Assembly (NCBI GenBank): GCA_902520195.1
Contig: CABYND010000001.1
Location: forward strand, 186,001-250,000
Direction: 5' to 3'
DNA: 64,000 bases
Origin: Halieaceae bacterium
GTDB taxonomy: Bacteria > Pseudomonadota > Gammaproteobacteria > Pseudomonadales > Halieaceae
A program made the position numbers and the translations under genes. The notes under the pieces are model-generated. The model was not told where the DNA came from and ran no database searches. It saw only the letters and a program-made list of their open reading frames with translations. This document shows positions 4,863-44,278 of the stretch, piece by piece. Position 1 is the first letter of the stretch, and the number at the start of each line of letters is the position of its first letter.

Positions 4863-5747
4863 TCATCGAATGAAGTTAAAAAGAGTCAACTGGCTGAGTT
4901 TTGCGAAGCTAGCCTGTAACGCCTGCAAAGCTACTGACTCCTGTGTAAGCTCCGTCACGGCCTCTGCGTAATCGAGATCGTCTTCTCTCAGGAGAAGCTC
5001 ATCTATCCTCAGCTCAGTATCCTCAATAATTGTGCGTTGTGACTCAATCGCTGCAACACGACTCGCCATCGTTCCATATGAGACGGTGAGCTTATTATTT
5101 ATGGTTTCAACTGCACTGATAGCACTTCTAATTCCGCTCCCGTTGTCGGCATTTAGCTTCGTAACAAGGTCATCGAGCGCTGCAAAATCAGCTGTAGAAA
5201 ACAACTCCGGCCCAATGGTGTTAATGGATAACCGTCTGACGTCAGAGACGTTTATCTGCAACCGCCCATGATCTCCGTTATAGGTAACGACTCCGCTACT
5301 GTTTTCCACAAACGCCGGCGCCTGCACTTTGTTGCCAGAGAAAATATAGTTGCCGTTTATGTCTTGGGTATTCGCGAGATTGAGTAACTCGTCACGCAGT
5401 GCTTTGACCTCAGCTGCAATCACGGCACGATCTTCCGGAGCAAGGGTGTCGTTTCCACCTTGAACGGTGAGCTCGGTGATACGTTGCATAATCTGGGTCA
5501 TGGACGTCAAAACCGCTTCCTCAGACGTTAAACGCGTCTGCGCTGCATCCACGTTCTTACCGTACACAGCCTGTCGTTCTTTTCCGCTTTCTAAGCGCGA
5601 TATTAGATCGGCCTTGGAAGGATTCTCGCTGGGGTGTAAGAGTTGCTTTCCTGAGCCTAGCTTAGCCTGGATCTCGGCGACTTTGTTTTGCCGGGTCTGT
5701 AACTGGTCAGCATTAGTCTTGTAATACTGAGCTGTAGAAATTCTCAT
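4863..5747 (-). CDS. flgL: Hook-filament junction protein FlgL (HAP3)
   Basis: A 294-residue flagellin-like junction protein. The start MRISTAQYYKTNADQLQTR and the GSGKQLLHPSENPSKADLI segment (about 31-49) are the conserved N-terminal D0/D1 coiled region. The C-terminal region ends with LQASFAKLSQLTLFNFI, the paired D0 helix. The length is close to that of other gammaproteobacterial FlgL proteins and no hypervariable domain is inserted, unlike the neighbouring FlgK. It starts 6 bases after the flgK stop. Confidence 0.94.
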   Translation of the reverse strand: MRISTAQYYKTNADQLQTRQNKVAEIQAKLGSGKQLLHPSENPSKADLISRLESGKERQAVYGKNVDAAQTRLTSEEAVLTSMTQIMQRITELTVQGGNDTLAPEDRAVIAAEVKALRDELLNLANTQDINGNYIFSGNKVQAPAFVENSSGVVTYNGDHGRLQINVSDVRRLSINTIGPELFSTADFAALDDLVTKLNADNGSGIRSAISAVETINNKLTVSYGTMASRVAAIESQRTIIEDTELRIDELLLREDDLDYAEAVTELTQESVALQALQASFAKLSQLTLFNFIR

Positions 5748-19717: not shown

Positions 19718-19990
19718 CTAGCCCCTGCCGGGCTCATCACCTCTCAGCCAGAAAACCCAAGCCAGAACTACTGCAACAACGCGATACAAAGACTCAGGCA
19801 CTTCCTCACCAATATCCACGCCGTTAAGCAAGCGTTGCAGGGTCTCGTCTTCGATAACAGGGAGCCCCAGCTCGAACGCGGCATCAATGATCGACATCGC
19901 CTCTTCACCCTCGCCTTTAGCAAGAATGCTAGGTGCCTCGCGCTTTCCGTACTCAAGCGCGATGGCCTTAATTTCATCCAGTTCTTTCAT
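19718..19990 (-). CDS. Stand-alone FlhB C-terminal domain-like protein (FhlB/YlqH type)
   Basis: A 90-residue protein similar to the cytoplasmic C-terminal domain of FlhB downstream of the autocleavage site. The order AIALEYGKREAPSILAKGEG, LGLPVIEDETLQRLL, then VDIGEEVPESLYRVVAVVLA follows that of FlhB_CC. It lacks the membrane domain and the NPxH cleavage motif. Small homologues of this sort can stand in for part of FlhB in other bacteria. It overlaps the FliK-like gene upstream by 4 bases, the same pairing as ylqG-ylqH in Bacillus. A full-length FlhB is encoded at 31059-32222. Confidence 0.85.
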   Translation of the reverse strand: MKELDEIKAIALEYGKREAPSILAKGEGEEAMSIIDAAFELGLPVIEDETLQRLLNGVDIGEEVPESLYRVVAVVLAWVFWLRGDEPGRG

Positions 19991-21086: not shown

Positions 21087-21560
21087 CTATGGGAAGCGAA
21101 TCCAGTCCTCATCGCTTGAAAGATGTTGCCGAAGATCTTTCTTACCCGGCACGACATAGTCCATAACGTCTGCCACCGTAGGCATACGCAAATTGGCGCC
21201 TGCCATCATCCAATGGGCATTCCCCCGCCGAAATGCCGCTTTGTTGTTCCTCACAATCACTTCTTTCATGACATCATGGTTTACACCCGTATCGCCCAGA
21301 TGCAGCGCCATGATTTCACTAAGCGTGTCCCCGGGCTGAACTTTGTACACGCCGTTGACGACCGAGCCCACCGATGAGGAATATACCGAAGCACCCACCC
21401 CAGAGGGCGTTTTTTCTTCGAAGTCGTTCTCGCCAATAAACGCTCTCAGTCGAGCGACATCGCTATCTGAAATAACAGATTGAGCCGACGTAATCTGCGC
21501 AGCCATCAAGGTCACCAGAGTCACGCAAGCAGTTAACCACGTGCGAACAATTAGTTTCAT
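21087..21560 (-). CDS. Secreted LysM-domain protein of the flgP-flgT operon
   Basis: A 157-residue protein with a signal peptide (about 1-26, ending TSAQS) and one LysM-like domain (VYKVQPGDTLSEIMALHLGD at about 72-91, continuing to GANLRMPT). It is FimV-like in style. LysM domains bind peptidoglycan, so a periplasmic place near the flagellar rings is likely. It lies 14 bases downstream of the flgT-like gene in the same operon. Its exact role is not known to me. Confidence 0.75.
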   Translation of the reverse strand: MKLIVRTWLTACVTLVTLMAAQITSAQSVISDSDVARLRAFIGENDFEEKTPSGVGASVYSSSVGSVVNGVYKVQPGDTLSEIMALHLGDTGVNHDVMKEVIVRNNKAAFRRGNAHWMMAGANLRMPTVADVMDYVVPGKKDLRQHLSSDEDWIRFP

Positions 21561-21574
21561 GTTTGCTTTCCTTT

Positions 21575-22738
21575 TTAAGGCAAAGTACCCAACAGTTCTC
21601 CCTGTGACACGAGCGCACCCTCCCCAGCAGGCAGGGGCTCAGCTTGTGCCCGATTGTCGTCTGCTCGAACCACCTTCAACATCAGCAGGGTATCCAGCGT
21701 TATATCACTCACAACGTTATTGACCATGAGTTCGCGATCGCCAACTAGTAACCAGGTGCCCTCTGTCACACCACGCATTCGTCCGGCGTCAACACTGAAG
21801 CGCTGAGGCCCGTCTCGGCTCACCATGAACACGCGAGGCAAACATTTGGTTGCATCGGTGAACTCCCCCGTGACGTCTGATACCCAAGCTGCGAGATCTT
21901 CTGGATCTTGCTCCATCACCCACTCACCTGACTGAAACGCGCGGTATGCGCCGGTATTGACCAAAGCTTGAAAATTGCCCATCGGACTTCTCGCCGCTGG
22001 CTGCGCGAATGAGAGCGTAATCGCGAACTTTACGGGCTTGGACGTGGAAGAAATAACATAGAACAGCGACGACAGACCCGGATGGTTGATATAGAAATCA
22101 TTCTCTTCGCGCTCGTCTACGAGCATTCGCACAGAAACCGATACGGCAAAGTCCGGGGCAGGACCGTCTGACCAGTCTCCGACCAGCGCCCGACCATAAG
22201 TTGTATTCTGATAGCTGTCTGGCTTTGGAGCTACGGGCGCCAGCACACGGAAGCCTTTAGCACCAAGACTGCGCTCCAGAGCTGACACCAGCAGCGCCTC
22301 CTGTTGCTGCTGTAATGTACTCTCGGACGCTTGCCTCATCGGGGGAGACGTCAAACGAATCGCCACTACGCCAGAATTGGGGCCCTGCTCTGTCCAAAGT
22401 TGGCAACGCGCCGCGTCAGAGACTCGCGCAGCCTCCAGAGACTGCTCTCCGCCCATGGCGTCCAAATAGCTCTCCACCTGCACACCTCGCACATCCGCCT
22501 CGCTGGAGAACATGGCGCGCTCATGCAATCGGCCTTGATCATCAATGTAGGCAACCCCTTTGACACGCGCCCCTGATTCCAATGCCGCATCCAGAGCGCG
22601 CTCCTTGAAAGCAGAAAGATACGCCGAGGCCTCTGCATCATTACTCAATGCCCCCGAGCGATCCTGTGACCAACCAACTGGTGTCGTCAGGGCATAGCAG
22701 CCGATCAAGCAGATCGCTAAAAACTTTCCACCTTTCAC
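21575..22738 (-). CDS. flgT: FlgT-like flagellar accessory-ring protein
   Basis: A 387-residue secreted protein with an N-terminal signal peptide ending near GWSQ. Its size and place next to flgP match FlgT, which in Vibrio forms part of the H-ring around the polar basal body and recruits other ring parts. The central ALLVSALERSLGAKGFRVLA stretch and the C-terminal beta-rich region (GTWLLVGDRELMVNN) fit the FlgT domain plan, but the similarity is weak, so the name rests mainly on context. Confidence 0.65.
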   Translation of the reverse strand: MKGGKFLAICLIGCYALTTPVGWSQDRSGALSNDAEASAYLSAFKERALDAALESGARVKGVAYIDDQGRLHERAMFSSEADVRGVQVESYLDAMGGEQSLEAARVSDAARCQLWTEQGPNSGVVAIRLTSPPMRQASESTLQQQQEALLVSALERSLGAKGFRVLAPVAPKPDSYQNTTYGRALVGDWSDGPAPDFAVSVSVRMLVDEREENDFYINHPGLSSLFYVISSTSKPVKFAITLSFAQPAARSPMGNFQALVNTGAYRAFQSGEWVMEQDPEDLAAWVSDVTGEFTDATKCLPRVFMVSRDGPQRFSVDAGRMRGVTEGTWLLVGDRELMVNNVVSDITLDTLLMLKVVRADDNRAQAEPLPAGEGALVSQGELLGTLP

Positions 22739-22753
22739 GCGATATGCTCCGCC

Positions 22754-23239
22754 CTATCGGGACCTCGATGCCATTACAGCGCGCTCGAGGTACAGTACTC
22801 TAAGATCGTTAACGATACTCTTATCAAGCGACATTGTGACCTCATAAGTATCGCTGCCACGGGGCTCAATTTGTACCAAATTGGCACCGTAAACAACGCC
22901 CTCTACACGTGCACGAAAACTATCGCTGCGAACGACCATGTCAGCCACGGTAGTTGTGGAATCGAGGTACTGCCCGTACACCTGCTCCGTCAAGCCTCTG
23001 TAAGCATCGAGTTTGGCCGCGCGGATCGCCAGTAATCTCCGCTGGGCGGGGATATCGCTAGGCTGCACATCGATCACCGCGTAACCGGTAGCCGTCAGCG
23101 TATCCCGTCGCTCGACCATAGGTTCGACAAATGATGCGTCTTGCTCAAAATTCAAATAAGCCAACGTTTCCAGTGTTTCGCAACCGTTAAGTAACGCAAA
23201 AACGAGAAGTGCCGACCATCCAATGACTAATTTGCGCAT
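22754..23239 (-). CDS. flgP: FlgP-like LPP20-family lipoprotein
   Basis: A 161-residue lipoprotein. The signal peptide ends in LLNGC with lipidated Cys20. The mature part has TATGYAVIDVQPSDIPAQRR followed by AIRAAKLDAYRGLTEQVYG, the hallmark of the LPP20/FlgP family found in outer-membrane-associated flagellar rings of polar-flagellated bacteria. A GGAGG ribosome site precedes the ATG. It heads the minus-strand operon behind a sigma28 promoter and is divergent from flhA. Confidence 0.83.
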   Translation of the reverse strand: MRKLVIGWSALLVFALLNGCETLETLAYLNFEQDASFVEPMVERRDTLTATGYAVIDVQPSDIPAQRRLLAIRAAKLDAYRGLTEQVYGQYLDSTTTVADMVVRSDSFRARVEGVVYGANLVQIEPRGSDTYEVTMSLDKSIVNDLRVLYLERAVMASRSR

Positions 23240-23493: not shown

Positions 23494-25614
23494 GTGGACG
23501 CCATACTGTCAAATTTCCGACAGTTTTCCGACCGTTTTTCGTGGCTCAGCGTGAAAAGTGTCGGTGCGCCGACATTGGTGCTACTCATTTTGGCGCTGTT
23601 GGTGGTGCCATTACCTGCTTTTGTGCTCGACGTGCTGTTCACATTCAACATTATGCTGGGTCTGTTGATGGTGATGATCACCCTCAACACGCGGAAGCCG
23701 CTAGAATTCTCATCCTTCCCATCTGTTCTGCTAATCGCCACCCTGCTGCGGTTAGGGTTAAACGTGGCCTCAACCCGGGTCGTGCTCGTTGAAGGGCATA
23801 CTGGCACCGACGCCGCAGGCACAGTCATTGAGTCTTTCGGCGAGTTTGTGATTGCCGGAAACTATGTCGTCGGTTTCATCATTTTCCTGATTCTCATGAT
23901 CATCAACTTCATAGTTGTGACCAAAGGTGCTGGCAGGGTATCGGAGGTCATCGCGCGCTTCACTCTGGATGCTATGCCGGGCAAGCAGATGGCGATTGAC
24001 GCGGATCTTAATGCAGGCGTGATCGATCAGGACACTGCCAAGCAACGCCGTAACGAGCTCACTCAAGAATCCGACTTTTACGGCTCGATGGACGGTGCAT
24101 CAAAGTTCGTGCGCGGTGATGCCATAGCAGGCATTCTCATTCTGATTATCAATATCGTTGGCGGCCTAGTCGTCGGCACAACACAGCATGAACTGAGCCT
24201 GAGTGAAGCAGGGCGGATATACGTGCTACTGACCATTGGTGATGGTCTGGTCGCCCAGATTCCCTCTTTACTCTTGTCGCTCTCGACCGCAGTTCTGGTC
24301 ACTCGGGTGACCACCGATGAGAGCATGACAGAGCAGGCGTCAAAGCAGGTCGCCGATGCCAATGGCGTATTCATTGCCTCTGGGATTGTGACGCTGCTGG
24401 GGCTCATCCCCGGCATGCCCCACTTTGTCTTCTTGCCCTTGGGTGCTGCTGGCATTGGTCTGGGCTATTACATCCGGCAGCAGGCAGCCGAGCAACAAAA
24501 CGAGGCCGTAAACGCCAAGGCAGCCGCCGAGGTCGAACCCACCAACCGGGAGTTAGATTGGGAGGATATTGATCAGGTAGAAGTCATCGCGTTGGACATT
24601 GGCTACGGATTGGTGCCGCTTGCCAATACGCAATCTGGTGGGCAATTACTGACGCGGATCCGTGGCATTCGTAAGAAGCTCTCTGCCGAATTAGGTTTTC
24701 TGATTCAGCCGATTCGTATCAGGGATAATCTCGACCTCAAGCCCGAGGTCTATCAAATCTCTCTTCATGGGGTCGTCCGCGGCTCCGGTGACGTACGTGT
24801 CGGCAAGCTGCTTGCGATCAGCAGCTCGGATATGCCCGCGCCCATTGATGGGGAGCCGACAACCGAGCCCGCTTTTGGACTGGATGCGTTATGGATTGAG
24901 TCATCGCAAGCTGAATTGGCCCGAGGTTTGGGCTACACAGTAGTCGACGCACCCACAGCGATAGCTACGCACATAAACGCCGTCATTCGAGAGAGCGCCA
25001 GCGAGCTACTGGGCCAAGACGAAACACAGCAACTGCTGGACAAGGTCGCTATTCGCTATCCAAAGCTAGTGAGTAGCCTAGTGCCAGACTTGCTGCCGCT
25101 CTCGACAGTGACACAGGTGCTGCAGAATCTTTTGGCTGAATCCGTGCCGGTTAAAGATATGCGGAATATCATCGACACGCTGACAGCACATGCCAAAGAG
25201 AACCAAGACGCTAGCCACCTCACCTCGCTGGTGAGACCTAAGCTGGGCAGGTTAATTTGTCAGCCGCTTGTGGATGACACTGGCACGCTGACCGTGATCA
25301 CGCTTGCGCCTGACCTAGAAAAACTGCTTGAGAGCAGTCGCGCAGGGGCAGAAACCGAGCACGTCACGCTTGACCCTACGCTTGCCAACTCGATGATTGA
25401 AAGTTTGAAGACCGAAGCAGAAAAGATCCAGGATACGGGCGCTGCCGCGACACTCGTTGTTTCTCCGGGCTTGAGGAGCTGGATGTCTCGCTTTGTTCGC
25501 GCACGCGTGCCTGATCTTACGGTACTCTCTTACACCGAGATACCTGATGATCAGCGCATCCAAGTTCAATCCAGTATCGGTGGAGAGACAGCCATCGAAG
25601 GGGAAACGGAGTAA
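23494..25614 (+). CDS. flhA: Flagellar type III export gate protein FlhA
   Basis: A 706-residue inner-membrane protein of the flagellar export gate. The N-terminal 330 or so residues hold the membrane helices and the conserved FHIPEP-family region (LLRLGLNVASTRVVLVEGH, DAMPGKQMAIDADLNAG). The remaining part is the cytoplasmic domain that docks late chaperone-substrate complexes. The start is GTG behind GGGAGGT with 8 bases spacing. Length and domain order are normal. Confidence 0.96.
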   Translation: MDAILSNFRQFSDRFSWLSVKSVGAPTLVLLILALLVVPLPAFVLDVLFTFNIMLGLLMVMITLNTRKPLEFSSFPSVLLIATLLRLGLNVASTRVVLVEGHTGTDAAGTVIESFGEFVIAGNYVVGFIIFLILMIINFIVVTKGAGRVSEVIARFTLDAMPGKQMAIDADLNAGVIDQDTAKQRRNELTQESDFYGSMDGASKFVRGDAIAGILILIINIVGGLVVGTTQHELSLSEAGRIYVLLTIGDGLVAQIPSLLLSLSTAVLVTRVTTDESMTEQASKQVADANGVFIASGIVTLLGLIPGMPHFVFLPLGAAGIGLGYYIRQQAAEQQNEAVNAKAAAEVEPTNRELDWEDIDQVEVIALDIGYGLVPLANTQSGGQLLTRIRGIRKKLSAELGFLIQPIRIRDNLDLKPEVYQISLHGVVRGSGDVRVGKLLAISSSDMPAPIDGEPTTEPAFGLDALWIESSQAELARGLGYTVVDAPTAIATHINAVIRESASELLGQDETQQLLDKVAIRYPKLVSSLVPDLLPLSTVTQVLQNLLAESVPVKDMRNIIDTLTAHAKENQDASHLTSLVRPKLGRLICQPLVDDTGTLTVITLAPDLEKLLESSRAGAETEHVTLDPTLANSMIESLKTEAEKIQDTGAAATLVVSPGLRSWMSRFVRARVPDLTVLSYTEIPDDQRIQVQSSIGGETAIEGETE

Positions 25615-25620
25615 TAGATC

Positions 25621-26436
25621 ATGCGACTTGAAGTAGTAGAAGCGCCAGATCACGGCGCTTGCATGGAACAGCTGAGAAGCCATTACGGGGCCGACTGCGT
25701 GGTCGTGCACAGCTTTCGGGTCAAAGACCGTTACCGCGTTGTGGTGGCGCTGGAGACTGAATCCTGCAGAAACGCTGCCCCGCTGGAAAGCGCAGTGAAA
25801 GACGTTGTTTCAGGTACACGCATTCGTTGGGATACCCTCATGGATGGAGCGCCCACCGCCTCTGATGAGCAAACGAGTGAGAGCCCAGTTATTGCAGGCC
25901 TCCCGAACCACGAATTAACAGCGCCACAGCCTGCACCCGAAATCAGCTCCGCTCTTTTGGAGCTTGCTGCCCGTGTGAAGGCGTTGGAGGCCTTTCACCA
26001 GCCCACTGTCCTTGAACCCGAGTCCGAGGAGTTTCGAGCGGCAGTTTTTTCCGATGTACTCGCGGATGCTGTTGCCCAGCGCACAATCGAACCGACGCCA
26101 CAAGGTCGGGTGACGGCTGCAGAGAGCTCGGCTGCGGAAACGTTGGCTACAGAAATTTCGGCGCCCGGGACTATCTCGCCGGCACAACCCTCAATGGCGA
26201 TATCCCGCTTCGCGTCACCCGTTAATGCACTAGTTAATCGAGTCGAGCCCACCCTTTCAGGTACACTCACTGACGCGGACTGGGCAGGGGAGGCGCAAAT
26301 ACCCCGAGTTTTCACTTCCGAGGGTGCAGAGGGCTTTGCCAGCCTGCTGATGGAATGTGTTGCCGATTCCCAGAAAAGCCTGCCCCTTTCTGGCCAGACT
26401 CAGCTTAGAATGGCGGTAGGGCACAGTATCTTCTAG
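25621..26436 (+). CDS. FlhF-like protein lacking the SRP-type GTPase domain
   Basis: A 271-residue protein in the flhF position between flhA and flhG. Residues 1-45 (MRLEVVEAPDHGACMEQLRS, then HYGADCVVVHSFRVKDRYRV) resemble the N-terminal B domain of FlhF. The middle is Ala/Pro/Glu-rich and low in complexity. Full FlhF is 400-500 residues and ends with the SRP54-like NG GTPase domain. None of its motifs (P-loop GxTGxGKTT, DTAG) appear here, and flhG begins 50 bases after the stop, so there is no room for a frameshifted GTPase. GGAG lies 9 bases before the ATG. It may be a reduced FlhF or an unrelated replacement; the N-terminal likeness favours reduction. Confidence 0.75.
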   Translation: MRLEVVEAPDHGACMEQLRSHYGADCVVVHSFRVKDRYRVVVALETESCRNAAPLESAVKDVVSGTRIRWDTLMDGAPTASDEQTSESPVIAGLPNHELTAPQPAPEISSALLELAARVKALEAFHQPTVLEPESEEFRAAVFSDVLADAVAQRTIEPTPQGRVTAAESSAAETLATEISAPGTISPAQPSMAISRFASPVNALVNRVEPTLSGTLTDADWAGEAQIPRVFTSEGAEGFASLLMECVADSQKSLPLSGQTQLRMAVGHSIF

Positions 26437-26485: not shown

Positions 26486-27271
26486 ATGCGTGTAATTGGT
26501 GTTACTAGCGGTAAGGGAGGTGTTGGCAAGACAACGGTCTCGGTCAACCTCGCCGTCGAGCTCGCCAAGCGCGGCAAAAAAGTGGTTTTACTCGATGGCG
26601 ACCTGGGTCTCAGTAACGCTCAGATCCTCTTAAATGCCAGAGTCGAATACAGCTACGGGCACGTCCTCTCAGGCCAGAAAACCCTTGAAGAAATCATGGT
26701 GCAGTCTGAATATGGCGTCACTTTGGTGCCAGGCTCTAGTGGGTCATCTGCGCTCGCAAGGCTAACGCGCCTGCAGCTACTGGGCCTAATTCACGCGCTG
26801 TCAGCACTGGATGACTGCGATTACCTCGTGGTGGATACCGCCGCAGGCATCAGTGACAATGTCACCGTCTTGTTTGGTGCCTGTGACATCAAATTGCTAC
26901 TGATACAAAATGAACCCTCCTCGATCGCTGATGCTTATGCGACGGTCAAGGTATTACAGCAGGAGTTCAACCTCTCAGATATCATGCTGACGCCGGTTCA
27001 GGTCACCAACGAGAGAGAGTCTGAGAATATTCACAAGCGTATTAACAAAGTGACTGCGCAATTCCTTGGGCTATCTCTTGAGTACTCAACCGGCATTCGC
27101 AAAGACCCTGTCGTCCTCAACTCGGCACGACTGGGTCAACCGGCGATCCTTCACGCGCCAGAAAGCGACATTGCCAAAGACATCAGACGATTGGTCGACG
27201 TGATCACAGAGGCTGTTAGCAAGCCCGCCGGCTCCAGCGATATCAGGATATCGGTAGGTGCAAAGGGCTAG
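26486..27271 (+). CDS. flhG: MinD-like flagellar number ATPase FlhG/FleN
   Basis: A 261-residue MinD/ParA-family ATPase that normally limits polar flagella to one and restrains FleQ-type activators. The deviant Walker A motif GKGGVGKT is at residues 9-16, LLDGDLGLSNAQ follows near 34-45, and VVDTAAGISDNVT is the Walker B/switch region. The protein starts only a few residues before the P-loop, so the DQAxxLR-type helix that stimulates the FlhF GTPase in other FlhG proteins is missing. An in-frame stop at 26438-26440 and no start codon between rule out a longer form. Confidence 0.93.
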   Translation: MRVIGVTSGKGGVGKTTVSVNLAVELAKRGKKVVLLDGDLGLSNAQILLNARVEYSYGHVLSGQKTLEEIMVQSEYGVTLVPGSSGSSALARLTRLQLLGLIHALSALDDCDYLVVDTAAGISDNVTVLFGACDIKLLLIQNEPSSIADAYATVKVLQQEFNLSDIMLTPVQVTNERESENIHKRINKVTAQFLGLSLEYSTGIRKDPVVLNSARLGQPAILHAPESDIAKDIRRLVDVITEAVSKPAGSSDIRISVGAKG

Positions 27272-27274
27272 ACT

Positions 27275-27994
27275 ATGTCCAAGGGCTACCAGGCATATGC
27301 TGACGCGCTATTGCAAGCCGAGCCAAGCGGCGAAAACGCGGCAGTGCTCCGGCATATTGGCCTGGTGCACAAAACAGCATTACATATCAAAGCACGATTA
27401 CCTGACCACGTAGAACTCGAAGAACTCGTTCAAATCGGCATGGTCGGCTTACTTGAGGCCGCCAAATCTTATGACACCTCACAAGGCGCAGATCTCGGCA
27501 CGTTTGCTAGCAAACGCATCCGCGGCGCCATTTTGGACGAGGTAAGAAAGCGATCACCTTTGTCAAGAACTGACAGCTCGAACATGAAAGCCGAGGAGCA
27601 GGTGGTTGAACAGTTTATGGCCAAACACGGCAGGCCGCCCACAGCGAGTGAGGTTGCAGCTGAGCTAGATACCTCGCTAGAGGATTATCAGAAGCAACGC
27701 GACCGATCGCAGAAAATGAGAACCACTTCACTTGTTGAGCTAGAGGACAGCGGACAGGCGCCAATTTCTGAATCAGCCAGCCCTGAAGAGGAAGCTGAAG
27801 CGGTAGACACTAGGGAATGGCTTGCCGGCGAGATCTCTCAACTCCCCGAGCGAGAGCAGATCGTGCTTTCTTTGTACTATAACGAAGAGATGAATTTGAA
27901 AGAAATTGGCGCGATTATCGGAGTGAGTGAATCACGGGTGAGTCAGATTCTCACCAGAGTAGTGGATAAATTACGCGGCCGGGTAGCGTTTTAA
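27275..27994 (+). CDS. fliA: Flagellar sigma factor sigma28 FliA
   Basis: A 239-residue alternative sigma factor for late flagellar genes. Region 2 (LEELVQIGMVGLLEAAKSYD, then TFASKRIRGAILDEVRK), region 3 (GRPPTASEVAAELDTS) and region 4 (LPEREQIVLSLYYNEEMNLK, EIGAIIGVSESRVSQI) are all present. It starts 3 bases after flhG. Two canonical target promoters, for flgM and for the flgP operon, lie in the same window. Confidence 0.97.
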   Translation: MSKGYQAYADALLQAEPSGENAAVLRHIGLVHKTALHIKARLPDHVELEELVQIGMVGLLEAAKSYDTSQGADLGTFASKRIRGAILDEVRKRSPLSRTDSSNMKAEEQVVEQFMAKHGRPPTASEVAAELDTSLEDYQKQRDRSQKMRTTSLVELEDSGQAPISESASPEEEAEAVDTREWLAGEISQLPEREQIVLSLYYNEEMNLKEIGAIIGVSESRVSQILTRVVDKLRGRVAF

Positions 27995-28009: not shown

Positions 28010-28489
28010 ATGTTCGGAAAAAAATCAAAACTTCAACGCGTCAAAGCAGACGCTAAGGCTGATTACCTCAAGTGCGGAGCACTGGATCCGGAGGATCGAC
28101 TGCATCGCGTGTTCGCGGCGAGGATCGCCCAGCGAGCTAGGCTCAACTTAGACAAGATTTTCGTGCAGGGCGCCAAGGCCGAAGAGAAGCGCCAGCTGGA
28201 GCTCGCGGAGGCCATCAAGGCAGGCGCTGATCTGCCGCCCAGGATTGTTCATGAGGGCTATAACCAGTTACAGGGGGTTTCTGGCGCCGTGGTGTCCTGG
28301 GTGCCTGACGAGCTGGCCAATAAAATGTTCAATCTCGGCGCTGACTACCAAATCACCGAGATCAGCGCTCACGAAGCCTTAGAACAAGCAGACAAGATTG
28401 CCGAGAACTTGGTCGAAGACCTGCAGACCACTCAGGTTATTCAGCTGCTGGGCCTGCTGCGAGAAGACGACGGTGACGAGGCTGAGTAA
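28010..28489 (+). CDS. Unknown cytoplasmic protein encoded after fliA
   Basis: A 159-residue protein I do not recognise. It is strongly basic at the N-terminus (MFGKKSKLQRVKADAK), predicted mainly helical, and acidic at the C-terminus (REDDGDEAE). There is no signal peptide, membrane segment or known motif. It begins 15 bases after fliA and ends 18 bases before the next unknown gene, so it is almost certainly part of the flhA-flhG-fliA operon. In related bacteria this spot often holds cheY/cheZ or fipA-like genes; this sequence fits none of them. Confidence 0.72.
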   Translation: MFGKKSKLQRVKADAKADYLKCGALDPEDRLHRVFAARIAQRARLNLDKIFVQGAKAEEKRQLELAEAIKAGADLPPRIVHEGYNQLQGVSGAVVSWVPDELANKMFNLGADYQITEISAHEALEQADKIAENLVEDLQTTQVIQLLGLLREDDGDEAE

Positions 28490-28507
28490 ACGGCAGGAGC
28501 CGGAACC

Positions 28508-29146
28508 ATGTCTCTAGAGAGCATTGTCATCGCTGTCTCGCTCCTACTGGGCATCGTACTGCTCATTCTTATCATCTATCTCATCAGCCGGGTAAATGAT
28601 CTGGAGGCCAAGGCTTTTTATCAGCAAGAGACCGCTAGCTCGGGAGAAAAAAAAACCGAGAATGAGCCACAAAAAGTATTTGGAGGCCTTAGCGGCCGCC
28701 AGCTTTGGGATGAATGGGTGTCCATAGCAAATGGTGGCGATGATCAGTACGGCATCAAAGGAGACCGCGACCGCTTTTTGGCGCTGCTGGAACTCCATGC
28801 ACGCTCGCTCATCAAGACCGGCATGGAACATGGCGCCTCCAGCACCAATGAACAACCTTCCAACCCTCTCACGATCAAAATGCTACGCGGAGAGTTCGAG
28901 TCTTATTTGCCCTCCTCTCAGGCAAGTCGCCTATATGAGCTTGGCCGGGAGCTCGGCGCGAGCGAGGATACGCAACAGCGCGCGGCGTTGTCTGCGGCGC
29001 TCACCGAAACCGTTGAAGCGATCTCAATGGGTATTGATGCTGGCTCCTCTTTTGTAGAGAGCACCATGCGGGATGTGCCGATCAACCCGCCCGAATCCGA
29101 GCCCGGTCAGGAATTGGTCCCCTCGGATAATCCTGAAAGCGGCTAA
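28508..29146 (+). CDS. Unknown single-pass membrane protein encoded after fliA
   Basis: A 212-residue protein with one N-terminal membrane helix (about 5-27: SIVIAVSLLLGIVLLILIIY and on) and a cytoplasmic tail holding a short polar linker, a helical middle (GGLSGRQLWDEWVSIANGGD, RLYELGRELGAS) and a Pro/Glu/Ser-rich end. I know no family match. The layout (one helix, then a soluble tail, in the fliA operon) recalls the polar-landmark partner FipA, but the DUF2802 pattern is not evident. It is the last gene of the plus-strand operon and converges on the minus-strand gene at 29176. Confidence 0.7.
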   Translation: MSLESIVIAVSLLLGIVLLILIIYLISRVNDLEAKAFYQQETASSGEKKTENEPQKVFGGLSGRQLWDEWVSIANGGDDQYGIKGDRDRFLALLELHARSLIKTGMEHGASSTNEQPSNPLTIKMLRGEFESYLPSSQASRLYELGRELGASEDTQQRAALSAALTETVEAISMGIDAGSSFVESTMRDVPINPPESEPGQELVPSDNPESG

Positions 29147-29175
29147 CCCTTTTCATTTTTCAATACTCCAGCAGC

Positions 29176-30000
29176 CTATTCCCGCGCAGCGCTGGGGCTG
29201 GGAGGAAAGACGATCGCCCCCTCCGGGTAGATTTTCTCTGGAACAGGCGCCGGCTCGTCAATGCCATCACTGCGCATTTGGGCTTGTTGCAACGCTAACT
29301 GCGCCTCAAACAAGTCGGTGAGCTTGTCCCGCTCAATTTCAATTAGCGCGGACACTTCTCGCTTCAGGGCGGCGACATCCTCAAAGCCTGCCTCCAACTG
29401 CCTCACCCGCCTGGCCAGCTCGGATAACTGTTCAGACTGCTTTTGCAATTGGGCCCCCATCGCGCGGCTGGACTCTACGCCACTTCGCGTCACCTCGCTG
29501 GTTTCGGTCATGGTTGAGTTGACGCCCGCCATCGAGGCTTCCATTTGCTCAGCCATAATCCTGCCGTCCTGTTCCACCTGGCCAATAGCATCGGCCAGCT
29601 GCGCCTGACCCTCGTCGAGCATGGTCAGCTTCTGGTCGAGCACAACCATCCGATCGAGGGCAGAGTTCATATTCACGACACGCTTGGTAATCGACAATGT
29701 TGCGGCCTGCAACGCCTCCACCTGACCCGACAGTCGACCGCCCGCTACCATCAGTAATACCACGCACAGGAATACAACCACAGCAGCGCCCCCAGCGAGT
29801 CGTTTGGCGTAAAACTCCATCTTTCTGTTGGCCTGACTCGCGGAGTCAAGCGCCCGATCCAGTCGAGTATGCGTATCTGCGTTGAGCTGTGCCACCGCAT
29901 CGCTTGCCGGGTTGGGTGGCACCGACCCGCCGTTGTTCACGCTCTTCTGGTTGGGCAAAGTGAGTTCGTCATCCGCGCCCGGGTTTTCTTCATCTACCAT
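29176..30000 (-). CDS. Unknown coiled-coil protein with one membrane helix
   Basis: A 274-residue protein with an acidic cytoplasmic-looking N-terminus (about 1-70), one membrane helix (GGAAVVVFLCVVLLMVAGG, about 71-89) and a long helical, probably coiled-coil region with methyl-accepting-protein-like heptads (QMEASMAGVNSTMTETSE, QLQKQSEQLSELARRV). It lacks an MCP signalling hairpin, so it is not a chemoreceptor. It lies 49 bases behind the other unknown gene at 30050 and may be the tail of the fli-flhB operon. Function not known to me. Confidence 0.65.
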   Translation of the reverse strand: MVDEENPGADDELTLPNQKSVNNGGSVPPNPASDAVAQLNADTHTRLDRALDSASQANRKMEFYAKRLAGGAAVVVFLCVVLLMVAGGRLSGQVEALQAATLSITKRVVNMNSALDRMVVLDQKLTMLDEGQAQLADAIGQVEQDGRIMAEQMEASMAGVNSTMTETSEVTRSGVESSRAMGAQLQKQSEQLSELARRVRQLEAGFEDVAALKREVSALIEIERDKLTDLFEAQLALQQAQMRSDGIDEPAPVPEKIYPEGAIVFPPSPSAARE

Positions 30001-30024
30001 GTCAAGAATCTCCCTATTAGCAAC

Positions 30025-30048
30025 AATATCGGCCTTTTCGCCGATATT
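30025..30048 (-). repeat. Hairpin between two unknown flagellar-cluster genes
   Basis: Perfect 9-base inverted repeat AATATCGGC and GCCGATATT with a 6-base loop, starting directly behind the stop of the 30050-31015 gene. On the plus strand it is followed by TTTT; on the minus strand, the direction of both genes, only a short T-poor tail follows. It could be a processing or partial termination site that lowers expression of the gene at 29176. Confidence 0.5.
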
Positions 30049-30049
30049 T

Positions 30050-31015
30050 TTAGCGCGGAATCTTTGCCAGAAGCTGCTCCAGCCAGACCATCAACTGATC
30101 CCATACGGGTCTTACAATGAACTGAGTCGCCTCCCAAATCGGCGGGTGCAGGGCACCAGCAACTGCCAAAAATAGCGCGGCGGCGCACAGCACAATCAGG
30201 CTCGCAGATACCAATGACGTCACCCGGGGGAGAAACGCAGCCCAGTTAATCCAGGGTTTGCGCGCGCCGGCCGGCTCCTCCTCGGGCTCATCACTGGACG
30301 CCTCGGTTTCCGGCAAATCGGGCGATTGGGTCGAGGCGGGCGCGGCAGACTTCGACTCGTCGTAATCCGATACGCTGTATGTGGGGACATCATCAGCTGA
30401 TAAACCTGCTATGCCTGAGGCCAATCCATACCACTGTGAATCCACCAGCGAGGGCAACATTTCGAGGAGAGCACCCCTCTCGTGGCAATTATTGAGGAAG
30501 TGCTCCATAGATGCACTATCCATATGAGAGAGGCGGATAAGTTTGTTACGCGATTTCAGCGATAACTGCTGAAGTGCAGAGGCGTCATGATTATCAATCG
30601 TTGAAAACGCCAACATCCCGACATTGGCACCAGGGAAGGTATTGACCAGAGACTCACAGGCCATCCACTCCTTGCCCGCATTCGGGCCAAAATCCGGCAT
30701 CACAATGATATGGCGGTCGTTAGCTTGCTGGTTGCGGGCCTCCTCAATGCTCAAATCCGCAAGGACAGTATTGAACAACTCCACAATGTCATCCACCTTC
30801 GGGGACATCATGCGATGCAAATGCAGTCCCGGCTCACGCTTCAGCTGGTGATAAAGGGCAAGGAAACAGGCGTCGATGTGGAATTCTTCCTCACCCACAA
30901 TGAAAACGTTGCACATGCCTGTTAGCAGGGCATCGCGCGCGTTAGACAGAACACTCTCATCATCCGGGTGAGGTAGCGAGTCCAGCATCGGGGCATTTGT
31001 CGGGTCTGATGTCAT
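30050..31015 (-). CDS. Unknown membrane protein with a degenerate P-loop-like domain
   Basis: A 321-residue protein I do not recognise as a named family. Residues 25-200 look like an AAA/GspA-type fold: CNVFIVGEEEFHIDA stands where a Walker A loop would be (without GxxGxGKT) and RHIIVMPDFG where Walker B would be, followed by GMLAFSTIDNHDASA and KLIRLSHMD. A Pro/Glu/Ser-rich linker leads to a hydrophobic segment (LVSASLIVLCAAALFLAVAG) near the C-terminus. The protein is probably non-catalytic and membrane anchored. It starts 43 bases behind flhB. Confidence 0.65.
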   Translation of the reverse strand: MTSDPTNAPMLDSLPHPDDESVLSNARDALLTGMCNVFIVGEEEFHIDACFLALYHQLKREPGLHLHRMMSPKVDDIVELFNTVLADLSIEEARNQQANDRHIIVMPDFGPNAGKEWMACESLVNTFPGANVGMLAFSTIDNHDASALQQLSLKSRNKLIRLSHMDSASMEHFLNNCHERGALLEMLPSLVDSQWYGLASGIAGLSADDVPTYSVSDYDESKSAAPASTQSPDLPETEASSDEPEEEPAGARKPWINWAAFLPRVTSLVSASLIVLCAAALFLAVAGALHPPIWEATQFIVRPVWDQLMVWLEQLLAKIPR

Positions 31016-34394: not shown

Positions 34395-34730
34395 TCAGAG
34401 CTTCTCGACGCGGTCTTCTGAAGGCAGGATGCGAGTCAGTCTTACGCCGTAGCGGTCGTTCACCAGAACAACTTCGCCCTGAGCAACTACCGTATTGTTC
34501 ACAAGAAGATCCAGGGGCTCGCCAGCATTTCGCTCGAGCTCGATAACGCTACCCTGCTTGAGTCTTAGCAAATCGCGAATTTTCAAGCGCGTTCGGCCCA
34601 CCTCGACAGAGAGCGTAACGGGAACACTCTGGAGCACATCAGCGCTGACCATAGCGTCAAAACCCTGGCCCTCAGCATCCTCACTGAGCTGATCCAGCGA
34701 CACATCGGCAGTTTCTTCTTCTTCACTCAT
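34395..34730 (-). CDS. fliN: Flagellar C-ring switch protein FliN
   Basis: A 111-residue switch protein. An acidic N-terminus precedes the SpoA-like domain (QSVPVTLSVEVGRTRLKIRD, LLRLKQGSVIELERNAGEPL, DLLVNNTVVAQGEVVLVNDR, YGVRLTRI). Length and position after fliM are standard. Confidence 0.96.
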   Translation of the reverse strand: MSEEEETADVSLDQLSEDAEGQGFDAMVSADVLQSVPVTLSVEVGRTRLKIRDLLRLKQGSVIELERNAGEPLDLLVNNTVVAQGEVVLVNDRYGVRLTRILPSEDRVEKL

Positions 34731-34764: not shown

Positions 34765-35769
34765 CTAGCTCTCTGTCAGCTCAACGGCTTGCAGCAACCG
34801 CGCTGCGGCGTAGCCGTTTGCGGTACCTATCTCGGACTCAAACAAAGGAATTTCATCCACCAATACGCGCGCCAAATCAAACTTTCTCAGATCCAATACG
34901 TCGCCGACCTGCATTTTATTAAAGTCGCCAAGCGTCATTTCGACCTCACCCAAAATCACGCGATGTTCAAGCTCGGCGTCTGAAGCCGCACCGGCCAGCT
35001 CTCGCGCCCAGACGTCATGATCGACGGACGGATCCTCAGAATCCTGAACCCGGCCCCTCAACACGTCACGAATGGGCTTCAACGTTGCAAAGGGATAAAC
35101 CACATCAATTGTGCCGCGCTCCTTCCCGGGAAGCTCCACCTCGAGGTGGCACACAATCACCAGATCGTTCTCATCGACAATTTGTACAAATTGCGGATTA
35201 ATCTCCGAGCCGACATGCTCGCATTGAATCTCCATGATGGGAGCCCAGGCTTCGTGTATGGAGGCGAAAATAACCTCAAGCATGATGTTGATAATCCGGG
35301 TTTCGGTTGGGGTGAACATCCGGCCCGGGGGTAGCCCCTCGATGCCGCGCCCAAACCCACCAAAAAAGTTATCCAGCGATGCAAAGACCACGTTAGGATC
35401 AATGACCACCATCGATGTGCCTCGCAGCCCTGACAAGCGAACCGTATTCACCGATAGCGGCGCCTGCAGGTCTTGCAGATATTCCGAGAACGGGAGTGTC
35501 TTAACCCGATCAGCAGTGATGCGCGGGCTGGTTCGCAACACCTCGAGTAACCCTAACCGCAGGTGACGTGTGAACCGCTCGGTTATCATATCCACCGCGG
35601 CCAAATTGATACCGATGGTGGTATCTTCTGTCACCAAGTTGTGGGGGCGAATTTCTGCGCTAAGAGCAGACTCAGGGTCAATCAGAGAAGCCGACTCATC
35701 ATCAAACCCCTCGTCGGAGGCCAACGCATTGAGCTCCTCTTCCGAAAGTCTGCTGCTGTCTTCAGCCAT
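34765..35769 (-). CDS. fliM: Flagellar C-ring switch protein FliM
   Basis: A 334-residue switch protein. The N-terminal CheY-binding segment reads LSEEELNAL (8-16), close to the usual LSQxEIDALL. The middle has RFTRHLRLGLLEVLRTSPRI and the GRGIEGLPPGRMFTPTETRI block. The C-terminal SpoA-like domain has GEVEMTLGDFNKMQVGDVLD. The CheY-type peptide suggests that chemotaxis genes exist elsewhere in the genome. Confidence 0.96.
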   Translation of the reverse strand: MAEDSSRLSEEELNALASDEGFDDESASLIDPESALSAEIRPHNLVTEDTTIGINLAAVDMITERFTRHLRLGLLEVLRTSPRITADRVKTLPFSEYLQDLQAPLSVNTVRLSGLRGTSMVVIDPNVVFASLDNFFGGFGRGIEGLPPGRMFTPTETRIINIMLEVIFASIHEAWAPIMEIQCEHVGSEINPQFVQIVDENDLVIVCHLEVELPGKERGTIDVVYPFATLKPIRDVLRGRVQDSEDPSVDHDVWARELAGAASDAELEHRVILGEVEMTLGDFNKMQVGDVLDLRKFDLARVLVDEIPLFESEIGTANGYAAARLLQAVELTES

Positions 35770-40501: not shown

Positions 40502-41280
40502 GAATCCAGTAGCGAATCAGGGAACTGCGCTACCAGTTGCTCACGCAACTGATCAAATTCGCACTCAAGCAGTCGATCAATGACCAGATGGTCGTACTGA
40601 ACAGAGATATCACCATCATTCAGATCCGGATCGACCGTTACAGAAACGGATCGGTCAGCCAACATTTCGGAGAGCTGCTCCTCGGGCAGCACTGCTGCCA
40701 TCGCAGCGGACACCTTGATTTCCACCGGGACGCCGTCAGGAAATTCAATGTGCTCCAACGCGGTATTGAGATAAGCGCGGAATGCCTGCTCATCGACTTT
40801 GAGCGACTGCAAACAAACGGTTTTGGCGATGTCGAGTGACAGATCTGTTACCACAGGCCAGATTCTGGGGAGTGCGTCCATCTGAGTCTGAATCGCCTCA
40901 AAGAAGCGCTCGGCCAGCGCTTCCCGCTGCTGACTCTCCAAGTTGGATTGCCTGATGCCCTCTGCGACGCCCTCCTGAAACTTAGCTTCGAGCAGTTGGT
41001 CAATATCGATTTCTTGCTCTTCTCCCGCCTCTGCCTCATCGATAGCCGCCACATCAGCAGCATCCGACGCGGACCCCTCTGCCGGCTCGAGATCGCTCTC
41101 CTCTTCATCGGTATCGTTCTCTGTGCTGATCTGCTGCCAATGTGCTTCCTCAAAGCCCATCGGGCGCGCAGAGAGGTCCCCGGCAGCTGAGGCTTCACTG
41201 AAGGCTTTGGCGCGCCGATCAGCAGCGAGGAGTTCATTTAGCTCCCACACGACAGTGTCAGTGGCTTTAGACAAAGTCAT
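40498..41280 (-). CDS. fliH: Flagellar export ATPase regulator FliH
   Basis: A 260-residue protein from ATG 41280, overlapping fliG by 14 bases; the longer frame to 41463 lies inside fliG. The N-terminal half is acidic and low in complexity (DEEESDLEPAEG). The second half has AKFQEGVAEGIRQSNLESQQR and the conserved C-terminal domain (VPVEIKVSAAMAAVLPEEQL, VTVDPDLNDGDISVQYDHLV). FliH binds and restrains FliI and anchors it to the C-ring. Confidence 0.92.
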   Translation of the reverse strand: MTLSKATDTVVWELNELLAADRRAKAFSEASAAGDLSARPMGFEEAHWQQISTENDTDEEESDLEPAEGSASDAADVAAIDEAEAGEEQEIDIDQLLEAKFQEGVAEGIRQSNLESQQREALAERFFEAIQTQMDALPRIWPVVTDLSLDIAKTVCLQSLKVDEQAFRAYLNTALEHIEFPDGVPVEIKVSAAMAAVLPEEQLSEMLADRSVSVTVDPDLNDGDISVQYDHLVIDRLLECEFDQLREQLVAQFPDSLLDS

Positions 41281-42334
41281 CTCCACGACCCGCAAGTACC
41301 AGTTCGCCGGCATCAGACAGCTTTCTTGCAATACGCATGATATTTTTCTGAGCGTCCTCAACATCAGAGATACGCATCGGGCCCTTCGACTCCATATCAT
41401 CAATGAACATGGCCTTAGCCCGTTGCGACATGTTGTCAAAGAATTTGTCGCGGGTCTCTTCACTGGCGCCCTTCAACGCGACCATTAGCAAATCAGATTC
41501 GATGTTGCGCATCATTACCTGAATGGCGCGGTTGTCGACCATCGACAGGTTCTCAAAAGTGAACATGTTGTCTTGAATCTGAAGCGTCAGGTCCTCGTCC
41601 AGCTGGGTCAGAGACTTCATCACAGAAGTTTCAAGATCGACTTTGACAAAGTTCATGATCTTTGCGGCTGTCTTAACGCCACCAAAGCTCGACGATTGCG
41701 CGGAGGAGTTACTGGAGAACTGCTCAGACATGATGCGCTCCAGCTCTTCCATAGCGGATGGCTGAACGGTCTCAAGACTGGCCACACGCTGCATGACCTC
41801 ACCACGATTCTCTGGCGGTAAAAAACTCAACACGTCGGCGGCGACGTCGTATTCCAACACCGAGAGAATGATGGCAATCACCTGCGGGTGCTCGTTGATA
41901 ATCATGTCCGAAATCGCACGGGCATCCATCCAACGCAGAATCTCCAAACCCTTGGTTGATCCACCAGGCAGAATGCGGCTCAAGACCGTGCTGGCCTTGT
42001 CGTCACCTAGCGCACGCTTCAAAACGGATTCGACATAGTCTGTCGTGCCAAGACCCAGGTTCGTCTGTTGCTTGATAGTGCCAACGAAATCATCGAGCAC
42101 CGCGCTCACGGTTTCCTGTGAGAGATCAACGACACCCACCATCGCCGAACCCAGAGCCTGCACCTCACGAGGGTTCATGTAACGAATGATATCCGACGCC
42201 TGCGTCTCCCCCATAAGCAGCATAATGACCGCCGCTCGCTCAGTGGTTGTCATGGTCTCCAGCTCTTCACGAACGAAGTCCGGGAGCTCCGTTTCGCCAT
42301 CTCCTTGCGGAATGTTTGTTGCTGCCTCTGCCAT
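41267..42334 (-). CDS. fliG: Flagellar rotor/switch protein FliG
   Basis: A 355-residue rotor protein. The N-terminal domain has TTTERAAVIMLLMGETQASD and the middle has the EHPQ motif in INEHPQVIAIILSVL. The C-terminal torque helix includes DNRAIQVMMRNIESDLLMVA and ALKGASEETRDKFFDNMSQR. Length is normal and the C-terminus ends AGRGDDFV, as in gammaproteobacterial FliG proteins. Confidence 0.96.
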   Translation of the reverse strand: MAEAATNIPQGDGETELPDFVREELETMTTTERAAVIMLLMGETQASDIIRYMNPREVQALGSAMVGVVDLSQETVSAVLDDFVGTIKQQTNLGLGTTDYVESVLKRALGDDKASTVLSRILPGGSTKGLEILRWMDARAISDMIINEHPQVIAIILSVLEYDVAADVLSFLPPENRGEVMQRVASLETVQPSAMEELERIMSEQFSSNSSAQSSSFGGVKTAAKIMNFVKVDLETSVMKSLTQLDEDLTLQIQDNMFTFENLSMVDNRAIQVMMRNIESDLLMVALKGASEETRDKFFDNMSQRAKAMFIDDMESKGPMRISDVEDAQKNIMRIARKLSDAGELVLAGRGDDFV

Positions 42335-42346
42335 CTTCCAGCTCCC

Positions 42347-44278
42347 TTAGACGGGTTTAATCATTCTCTTCAGTACGTTAGCAACACGGCCTGCGTCCTC
42401 TGCAACAAGCAGTCGCACCACGGCCACTTTGTCATCATAGCTGTTGGCTGTGTCGAGCATATCGGCTGAAATAGCAGACTTTTTGGGCTTGAGTTTGGCC
42501 TTAATCTCGTCAAGAGATTCCCCCTCCTCAAGCGCCTTTCTGTCAGCCACGCTGAGCTCGCCGTCTATCAATTGCTCCGCGAGCAAGGCATCGCTCTCCT
42601 CAATCTTAGGCATATAGACCCGCAGGACCGGGGCAATGACCAGCAGGAAGAAAGCAATCAGTCCAATCGACGTCATTCCATGGCGGCCCCACTCGATAAT
42701 GGCGGGGTCCTTGTGCCAAGGCAACTGGTAATCCTGTGGCGGGTCGGTGAAGAAGGGCGCCGAGGTCATTGAGAGTGAGTCACCGCGCGCCTCGTCATAG
42801 GGCAGGGCGGCAACGACCAGAGTGCGGAACCGTTCGATCTCTTCGACCATAAATCGCTGTAACTCCGCGCCAGGAATGGGGGCTAGCGATGCTGAGGCAC
42901 CCTCCAGACCCGTCTCGGCATCTTCATCTACTTCTTCTGCAAGCAGGTCTTCAGTGACGGTGGATCCCTCATCGAGAGAGGCGTAGTAACGGCGCTTCGC
43001 CAGATCCCGCAACGCTTCCTCATTGATGATGACGCCGGCTGTCATAGAGGTCACGCGACCTGTCTGTTCTTTCACAAACCGGATCTCTTTATCGAGCTCA
43101 TAGTTACGCGTGGTTTGCTCACGCTCAGTAGTAGCGGTTTCGGTATTGGCTGGGTTCTCGGCGACCTCACCCTCCGGTACAACCTCTGGCTGGTCGGGTG
43201 GAATGTTGGTGGTGCCGCCCGGCACCCCCGATGCAGCGATACCGGTCTGCGTATCTGAGGTGATCACCTCAGACCGGACTTCTGCTCCGCCCCCCTCGAG
43301 ATCCAGATACTGCTCAGTGGTGGTTTCACGCTGAGTGAAATCCATCTCCAGATTGACGACGGTTCGCACGTTGCCGCCACCCAATGCCGGGATGAGAAGC
43401 TCGCGAATACGGTCAGCCAATTCTGCTTCTCGCTCCGCTTCAAAACGCGCGTTGTTAAGGGCGGGGGTGCCATCTTTTTCAGCATTGCTGCCAGTTAGCA
43501 AGTTGCCGTAGTGATCTACCACTGTGACGTCCTGCGTGGCGAGATAGGGCACACTGGCGCTGACCAAGTGAACGATTGAAAGTACCTGTGCGGGGTCAAC
43601 GACTCTACCCCGGTATGGCTTGACGATCACCGAGGCTTTGGCAGGTTGCCGATCGCGGACAAAGACGCTTTGCTTGGGCGCCGCTAAATGAACCCGGGCC
43701 ATTTCTATCGTGCTGATCTCGGAAATAGTGCGCGCGAGTTCAATCTCGATCGCATTGTTGTATTTCACTTGCTCCATAAATTGGCTGGTTGTCATCGAGC
43801 TGTCATCAGCCAGCGAGCCCATGCCACCCTCGGCTGCAGCCCTGGGGATGCCCTGGGATGCTAAAAAAATTCGCGCCGCTTGAAACACATTCTCGGGCAC
43901 CTCGAGACGCCCGGTGGATTTGTTAATTCGGACGTCGTAATTAGCAGATTTCAGCGCCTCAAAAGCCAACTGAACATCGGCCTGCTCCATGCCATCAGAA
44001 ACGCTTCGGTAAGGCGTAGACATCATCACCGACCAAAAAATCAGCACCACCAGCAAGGACAAAAGACCGACGATAGCGGGCATAGCTCGACGCACAGCAG
44101 GCTGTGACAGCACGTCTCTCAAAGTGGGCATCGCCTGAGCCTGATTCGCAGGCGCTGCGCCGGCCCGCTCAGCAGGCACAGTGGTGCTGCCTGTCTCGAT
44201 GGGCGCGTTACTGCCGGTGTCTACTTCGGTAGCTGACCCCTCTATCGGCGGTCGTTCTTCGAGTGCTGCTTCCATCAT
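42347..44278 (-). CDS. fliF: Flagellar MS-ring protein FliF
   Basis: A 643-residue MS-ring protein, a little longer than the usual 550-600. It has two membrane helices, at about 65-88 (VGLLSLLVVLIFWSVMMSTP) and about 530-553 (GMTSIGLIAFFLLVIAPVLR). Between them are the ring-building motifs (FLASQGIPRAAAEGGMGSLA, AIEIELARTISEISTIEMAR, VHLAAPKQSVFVRDRQPAKA). The C-terminal tail binds FliG. It starts 28 bases after fliE. Confidence 0.95.
   Translation of the reverse strand: MMEAALEERPPIEGSATEVDTGSNAPIETGSTTVPAERAGAAPANQAQAMPTLRDVLSQPAVRRAMPAIVGLLSLLVVLIFWSVMMSTPYRSVSDGMEQADVQLAFEALKSANYDVRINKSTGRLEVPENVFQAARIFLASQGIPRAAAEGGMGSLADDSSMTTSQFMEQVKYNNAIEIELARTISEISTIEMARVHLAAPKQSVFVRDRQPAKASVIVKPYRGRVVDPAQVLSIVHLVSASVPYLATQDVTVVDHYGNLLTGSNAEKDGTPALNNARFEAEREAELADRIRELLIPALGGGNVRTVVNLEMDFTQRETTTEQYLDLEGGGAEVRSEVITSDTQTGIAASGVPGGTTNIPPDQPEVVPEGEVAENPANTETATTEREQTTRNYELDKEIRFVKEQTGRVTSMTAGVIINEEALRDLAKRRYYASLDEGSTVTEDLLAEEVDEDAETGLEGASASLAPIPGAELQRFMVEEIERFRTLVVAALPYDEARGDSLSMTSAPFFTDPPQDYQLPWHKDPAIIEWGRHGMTSIGLIAFFLLVIAPVLRVYMPKIEESDALLAEQLIDGELSVADRKALEEGESLDEIKAKLKPKKSAISADMLDTANSYDDKVAVVRLLVAEDAGRVANVLKRMIKPV

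Follow-up and report, generated by a model that had tools for sequence, protein, structure and literature searches.

The 64,000-nucleotide stretch of DNA analyzed here (the window) carries, between flhA and the flhG-fliA pair, an open reading frame with an ATG start and a TAG stop that encodes 271 amino acids (272 with the stop) and ends 49 bases before the ATG of flhG. We refer to it as short flhF. It lies among flagellar genes, many of which could be assigned by profile (Table 1). In addition, FlhB, FliR, and FliP score over their NCBIfam cut-offs, FliI scores over the FliI/YscN cut-off, and the FlgA domain is matched; hook, rod, and filament-cap genes were named by reading of the sequence. 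A 90-amino-acid gene adjoining the flagellar genes (window 19718-19990) is matched to the C-terminal portion of FlhB in searches of the relatives. Six to seven unnamed genes (window 28010-31015 and 21087-23239) are kept with flhA-flhG-fliA across the lineage, with or without the GTPase; one encodes an LPP20-like lipoprotein, three encode proteins with apparent transmembrane helices, and most are without a Pfam match. As candidates for a replacement of the GTPase they were rejected as unspecific, since they are common to the GTPase-bearing relatives G050, G063, and G064.

Table 1. Features of the short flhF locus and of flagellar genes in the window
Feature	Position	Strand	Content or basis of assignment
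flhA	23494..25614	+	TIGR01398 over cut-off
short flhF	25621..26436	+	271 aa; FID and linker, without NG/GTPase domain
FID (FliG-interacting domain), predicted	25621..25758	+	Residues 1-46; AlphaFold2, Foldseek, purifying selection, profile alignment
Inner constrained segment	25933..26070	+	Residues 105-150; alignment conservation, pN/pS
F-S-D-V-L linker motif copy	26047..26061	+	Residues 143-147; F-x-x-[hydrophobic]-L pattern
C-terminal segment	26299..26433	+	Residues 227-271; predicted helix 234-252
flhG, MinD-like ATPase	26486..27271	+	MinD-family matches, position, relatives; starts directly at the P-loop strand
fliA, sigma 28	27275..27994	+	NF005413 and TIGR02479 over cut-off
fliN	34395..34730	-	TIGR02480 over cut-off
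fliM	34765..35769	-	TIGR01397 over cut-off
fliG, expected FID partner	41267..42334	-	TIGR00207 over cut-off
fliF	42347..44278	-	TIGR00206 over cut-off

The earlier note had described the product of this gene as a protein with an FlhF-like N terminus and no GTPase domain at the position of FlhF, a description that is borne out by the coordinates, by both family databases, and by the fold of the N terminus. Pfam returned no family at an E value of ≤10, and hence no NG domain (PF00448). The NCBIfam model of FlhF (TIGR03499) matched with an E value of 2.2e-6, yet its 27.9 bits lie far below the equivalog cut-off of 174.15, and an SRP54 search of the window's own genome found nothing at this position. 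An AlphaFold2 model, for which eight short FlhF proteins were aligned, arranges residues 1 to 40 as strand-helix-strand-strand with a pLDDT of about 90; past residue 50 it is mostly of low confidence, and its overall mean pLDDT is 54.6. When the model was compared with 350,542 PDB chains by Foldseek, ranks 1 to 8 were all chains of 9EN1, the FID of Shewanella putrefaciens FlhF (probability of 1.00, target TM score of 0.75 to 0.82, 21 to 24% identity). Their E values are weak (7e-3 at best, never ≤0.001), which is to be expected of 45 residues in a model that is mostly disordered. A sequence search of the PDB with short FlhF gave no real match; it was the fold search that succeeded. In profile comparison, residues 1 to 51 align to the beginning of full-length FlhF, and the rest of the protein does not align. 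The three strands and one helix of the FID are thus found in the model, in the PDB search, and in the profile alignment, and we confidently assign the modeled N terminus of short FlhF to the FID of FlhF.

Selection was analyzed in ten pairs among nine sequences, leaving out L072 (unread letters), G058, and G062 and with segment borders picked from the alignment itself. The FID is under purifying selection, with pN/pS values of 0.07 to 0.53 and, where dS was estimable, an ω of 0.25 (window and G034) or 0.033 (L070 and L071). Residues 105 to 150 are likewise under purifying selection (pN/pS, 0.06 to 0.66, compared with 0.43 to 0.94 in the two flanking linkers). The C-terminal segment, with a pN/pS of 0.16 to 1.07 (the top value against L076), is conserved among near relatives only. 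The region following the FID is therefore not plain low-complexity sequence, as the earlier note had it, but mostly predicted disorder that contains one constrained segment and a weaker C-terminal one. The predicted C-terminal helix was considered as an amphipathic membrane anchor and rejected, its moment exceeding 95% of shuffles in just 4 of 9 sequences. Within the linker, the pattern F-x-x-[VLAIMQ]-L occurs in 11/11 short FlhF proteins, in 5/7 long FlhF proteins of the same lineage, and in 1/36 others, with shuffle expectations of 1.7, 0.3, and 0.9, respectively (L072 was again dropped for its unread letters). Given that this pattern was defined post hoc, from sequences already seen, it serves as a lead only.

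When 140 genomes of the family were searched with a profile of short FlhF, 11 carriers came up, namely, ten in the window's genus (a Luminiphilus-like genus of the Halieaceae), the window's genome included, and G058, from a different genus. A twelfth, G062, was found by the position of its gene between flhA and flhG, on a single contig of 4,467 bases, free of unread bases, in a draft assembly. G058 is assembled as one contig of 3,095,392 bases; most of the other carriers are incomplete metagenome drafts. The length of short FlhF ranges from 170 to 290 amino acids across the carriers. The homologue set with the same domain loss that the earlier note had named as support is thus seen in 12 genomes, and the flhA-flhG intervals contain a short gene in these and a long FlhF with a P-loop in syntenic relatives. 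In a survey of 155 genomes drawn evenly across the order, 100 have the FID, one apiece, and the FID-bearing frame is at least 325 amino acids long in 98 of these 100, so that the combination of an FID with a short frame is not due to chance. The two short frames are the window's gene and one in G228 that runs off a contig end. Viral contigs searched for short FlhF yielded nothing.

The relatives that share this flagellar lineage bear on how the short form arose. G050 (from another family), G063, G064, and G060 have largely the same neighbor genes as the window, including several of the unnamed ones, and encode FlhF proteins of 386 to 432 amino acids with a P-loop. Since these syntenic relatives keep a long FlhF, the comparison indicates that short FlhF arose by loss of the GTPase domain rather than from a form that had never gained it. 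The G4 motif of long FlhF in the relatives is already variable (TKLD in G050, SKLD in Comamonadaceae records, SRMD in G060, and TRLE in G063 and G064). In the phylogeny computed from joined FlhA and FlhG sequences (22 rows; 14 of its 19 inner branches are starred; L072 dropped for unread letters), ten short-FlhF rows, including G058, form a single clade (100/100), and G062 is sister to the GTPase-bearing G060 (100/100). When every short-FlhF row was constrained to one clade, the fit was 34.9 log units worse, and an AU test rejected this grouping (P = 6.1e-5); the test was run after a quick tree of a larger set had been seen. By this phylogeny, the GTPase domain has been lost at least twice, with the loss in G062 independent, and the loss in the main clade is inferred to be at least as old as the split between two genera.

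The window's genus holds two flagellar gene sets that are about 50% identical in FlhA (L038 to L042 and L043 to L055). Comamonadaceae metagenome-assembled genomes and G050 are closer to the window's set than is the other set of its own genus, which suggests transfer between lineages. G060 carries, on separate contigs, two differing FlhA fragments of the window's lineage (L104 and L105) that are 63% and 78% identical to the window's FlhA.

Two further lineages appear, from their motifs, to encode FlhF without a working GTPase. One comprises eight genomes of the window's genus that belong to its second flagellar lineage (L043 to L046, L048, L050, L109, and L111; G119 and G122 beside six others). 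Their FlhF is of normal length, with the P-loop lysine changed to arginine, the DTAG aspartate changed to glutamate, and TKxD replaced; in the quick tree, seven of the eight lie on one side of a branch (99*). The other is G045, from another family of the order, with a 312-amino-acid FlhF (L121:3566-4504) in which no P-loop is readable; SRP54 is silent on this protein, and the genome has no third SRP54 match. Separately, L118 (G082) encodes an FlhF of 326 amino acids that ends shortly past TKLD, and no flhG was seen before its fliA.

What might an FlhF without its GTPase do? With neither an N nor a G domain, short FlhF would not bind GTP, would make no NG-mediated contact with HubP/FimV, and would offer no GTPase for FlhG to stimulate. 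In Shewanella, FlhF binds FliG through its first 60 residues, which are both required and sufficient for this contact, and binds HubP through its NG domain (PMC11236974). In Pseudomonas aeruginosa, a B-N construct, which is without the G domain, still allows flagella to form, about 65% of them non-polar (PMC12713375). By analogy with these data, short FlhF has most likely retained the docking of FliG and given up two functions, NG-mediated binding to the landmark and release timed by GTP. We consider it probable, although well short of certain, that short FlhF serves as an adaptor that works without GTP and docks FliG during basal-body assembly. As judged from its fold and constraint, the FID would dock on FliG and thereby gather FliF-FliG at the first steps of basal-body assembly, and the short conserved motif of the disordered linker may bind a second partner. 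The GTPase normally keeps FlhF at the polar landmark and releases FliG upon FlhG-stimulated hydrolysis; these tasks might be dispensable here or have moved to other contacts. Two sets of published results count against an adaptor: no truncated P. aeruginosa construct restored swimming, and flagella formed with the B-N construct were mostly non-polar (PMC12713375), and GTPase-motif mutants of Vibrio FlhF lost polar localization and flagella (PMC6092412). The earlier note had offered two alternatives, placement that works without an FlhF GTPase or a truncated protein acting as a scaffold. The departure that it saw is real; its two options are not mutually exclusive, and the retained FliG-binding module would favor the scaffold or adaptor.

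More tentatively, polar placement itself might proceed without an FlhF GTPase. The FID and the F-x-x-[hydrophobic]-L motif, which would predate the loss, could together tether FliG directly to a polar partner, with the GTP switch given up, within one order, at least two times through loss of the domain and at least once through erosion of its motifs. The main competing explanation, which we regard as rather unlikely, is that placement was given up and that the short protein supports assembly only, leaving flagella non-polar or randomly placed. The mislocalized flagellum of about 65% of cells with the P. aeruginosa B-N construct would fit this, as would the missing landmark-binding NG domain. 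However, the systems for flagellar number and pole look kept, given that flhG is extremely conserved (ω of 0.008 to 0.023, i.e., about 0.01 to 0.02) and that the FimV C-terminal domain is present in 6/6 short-FlhF genomes of the set searched. A further point that could be raised for abandoned placement concerns DUF2802 (PF10975), which we take to be FipA. It was found in 0 of the 37 genomes of the window's genus in the set searched, but it is also missing in the GTPase-bearing relatives G050, G039, G044, G052, and G054 and is therefore uninformative as a marker. The helix motif DQAxxLR, through which FlhG stimulates the FlhF GTPase, was uninformative too: none of the 52 FlhG proteins compared has it, whether or not an FlhF GTPase goes with them.

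Alternatively, short FlhF could be a decaying relic without function and heading for loss. Its fast-evolving linkers and variable length would be in keeping with this, yet we consider it improbable: the frame is open in 12/12 carrier genomes, the FID and the inner segment are constrained, and the form is at least as old as the split between two genera. Nor, as read from the genes, is short FlhF a sign of motility decay, because these two segments are constrained and the tested rotor and export genes are intact. Flagellins were found in 13 of 14 genomes tested, the exception being G019. Flagellin_N was matched six times in the window's own genome, including once within the window (5328-5741; flgL by reading). 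Upstream of the window (G000 contig C1:164547-182182) lie four strong flagellin matches in two pairs, so that this genome holds several flagellins. The type species of the genus, L. syltensis, is described as non-motile and without flhOPQRBA, a set that Aequoribacter fuscus IMCC3088 has (PMC3679898).

Still less plausible is an activity in trans from elsewhere in the genome, be it a second FlhF with a GTPase or a free-standing NG domain. The window's genome (G000; 57 contigs) has a single FID match, which is short flhF itself, and one SRP54 match, a 462-amino-acid frame of Ffh length. Since it is 69% complete, it cannot prove that there is no second FlhF, and so the relatives were searched. 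Among the 11 carriers covered (all except G062), the 96%-complete G025 included, SRP54 never exceeds its cut-off in more than two proteins: G034, G021, G003, G025, G126, G117, and G058 have two matches, and G000, G019, G120, and G130 have one. We presume these, from frame length, to be Ffh and FtsY. The better test is the single-contig G058, which has just two, of Ffh and FtsY length. Thus, the full-length flhF elsewhere in the genome that the earlier note had named as a counterargument was seen neither in G000 nor in G058, although strongly diverged FlhF GTPases score only about 20 to 25 bits with SRP54 and can be missed. Finally, an assembly or sequencing error that split the gene is a negligible concern even though nearly all short-FlhF genomes are drafts: it is refuted for the main clade, in which ten species from separate projects and one genome assembled as a single contig all show this architecture, and the window's flhG starts too soon downstream to leave room for a lost half. 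G062 alone rests on one contig of 4,467 bases.

The role of the FlhF GTPase has long been argued, since polarity or flagella are lost in some mutants and not in others; a 2013 study by Schniederberend is reportedly part of this argument. With the GTPase discarded more than once and motility genes kept, bacteria with short FlhF offer a natural experiment that would separate FliG docking from the GTP switch, and a natural test of what that switch does. Were polar placement indeed to work in them without it, a switch thought central to the FlhF/FlhG system would prove discardable. In the literature within reach, including the accessible part of a review of FlhF/FlhG evolution (PMC12826062) and with subscription papers mostly outside this scope, we found no natural GTPase-less FlhF and no phenotype for any carrier of the short form.

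Compared with known systems, short FlhF resembles the B-N-G proteins of Shewanella putrefaciens and Pseudomonas in its place in the operon (flhA-flhF-flhG-fliA), in the FID fold (9EN1), and in having a linker, but it is without their N and G domains. The P. aeruginosa B-N constructs likewise keep the FID with the GTPase removed, and flagella form there (PMC12713375); unlike this laboratory construct, the natural form also lacks the N domain and is kept across many species. The eroded-motif FlhF of the eight Luminiphilus-like genomes and G045 also keeps the FID with its GTPase function apparently lost, whereas the NG fold is still encoded there, without the P-loop lysine, DTAG aspartate, and TKxD; in the Luminiphilus-like genomes it belongs to a different flagellar lineage from that of short FlhF. 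TipF/TipN of Caulobacter bring FliG to the pole without an FlhF GTPase as well, but they are unrelated proteins (PMC11236974), whereas the adaptor proposed here would be a remnant of FlhF itself.
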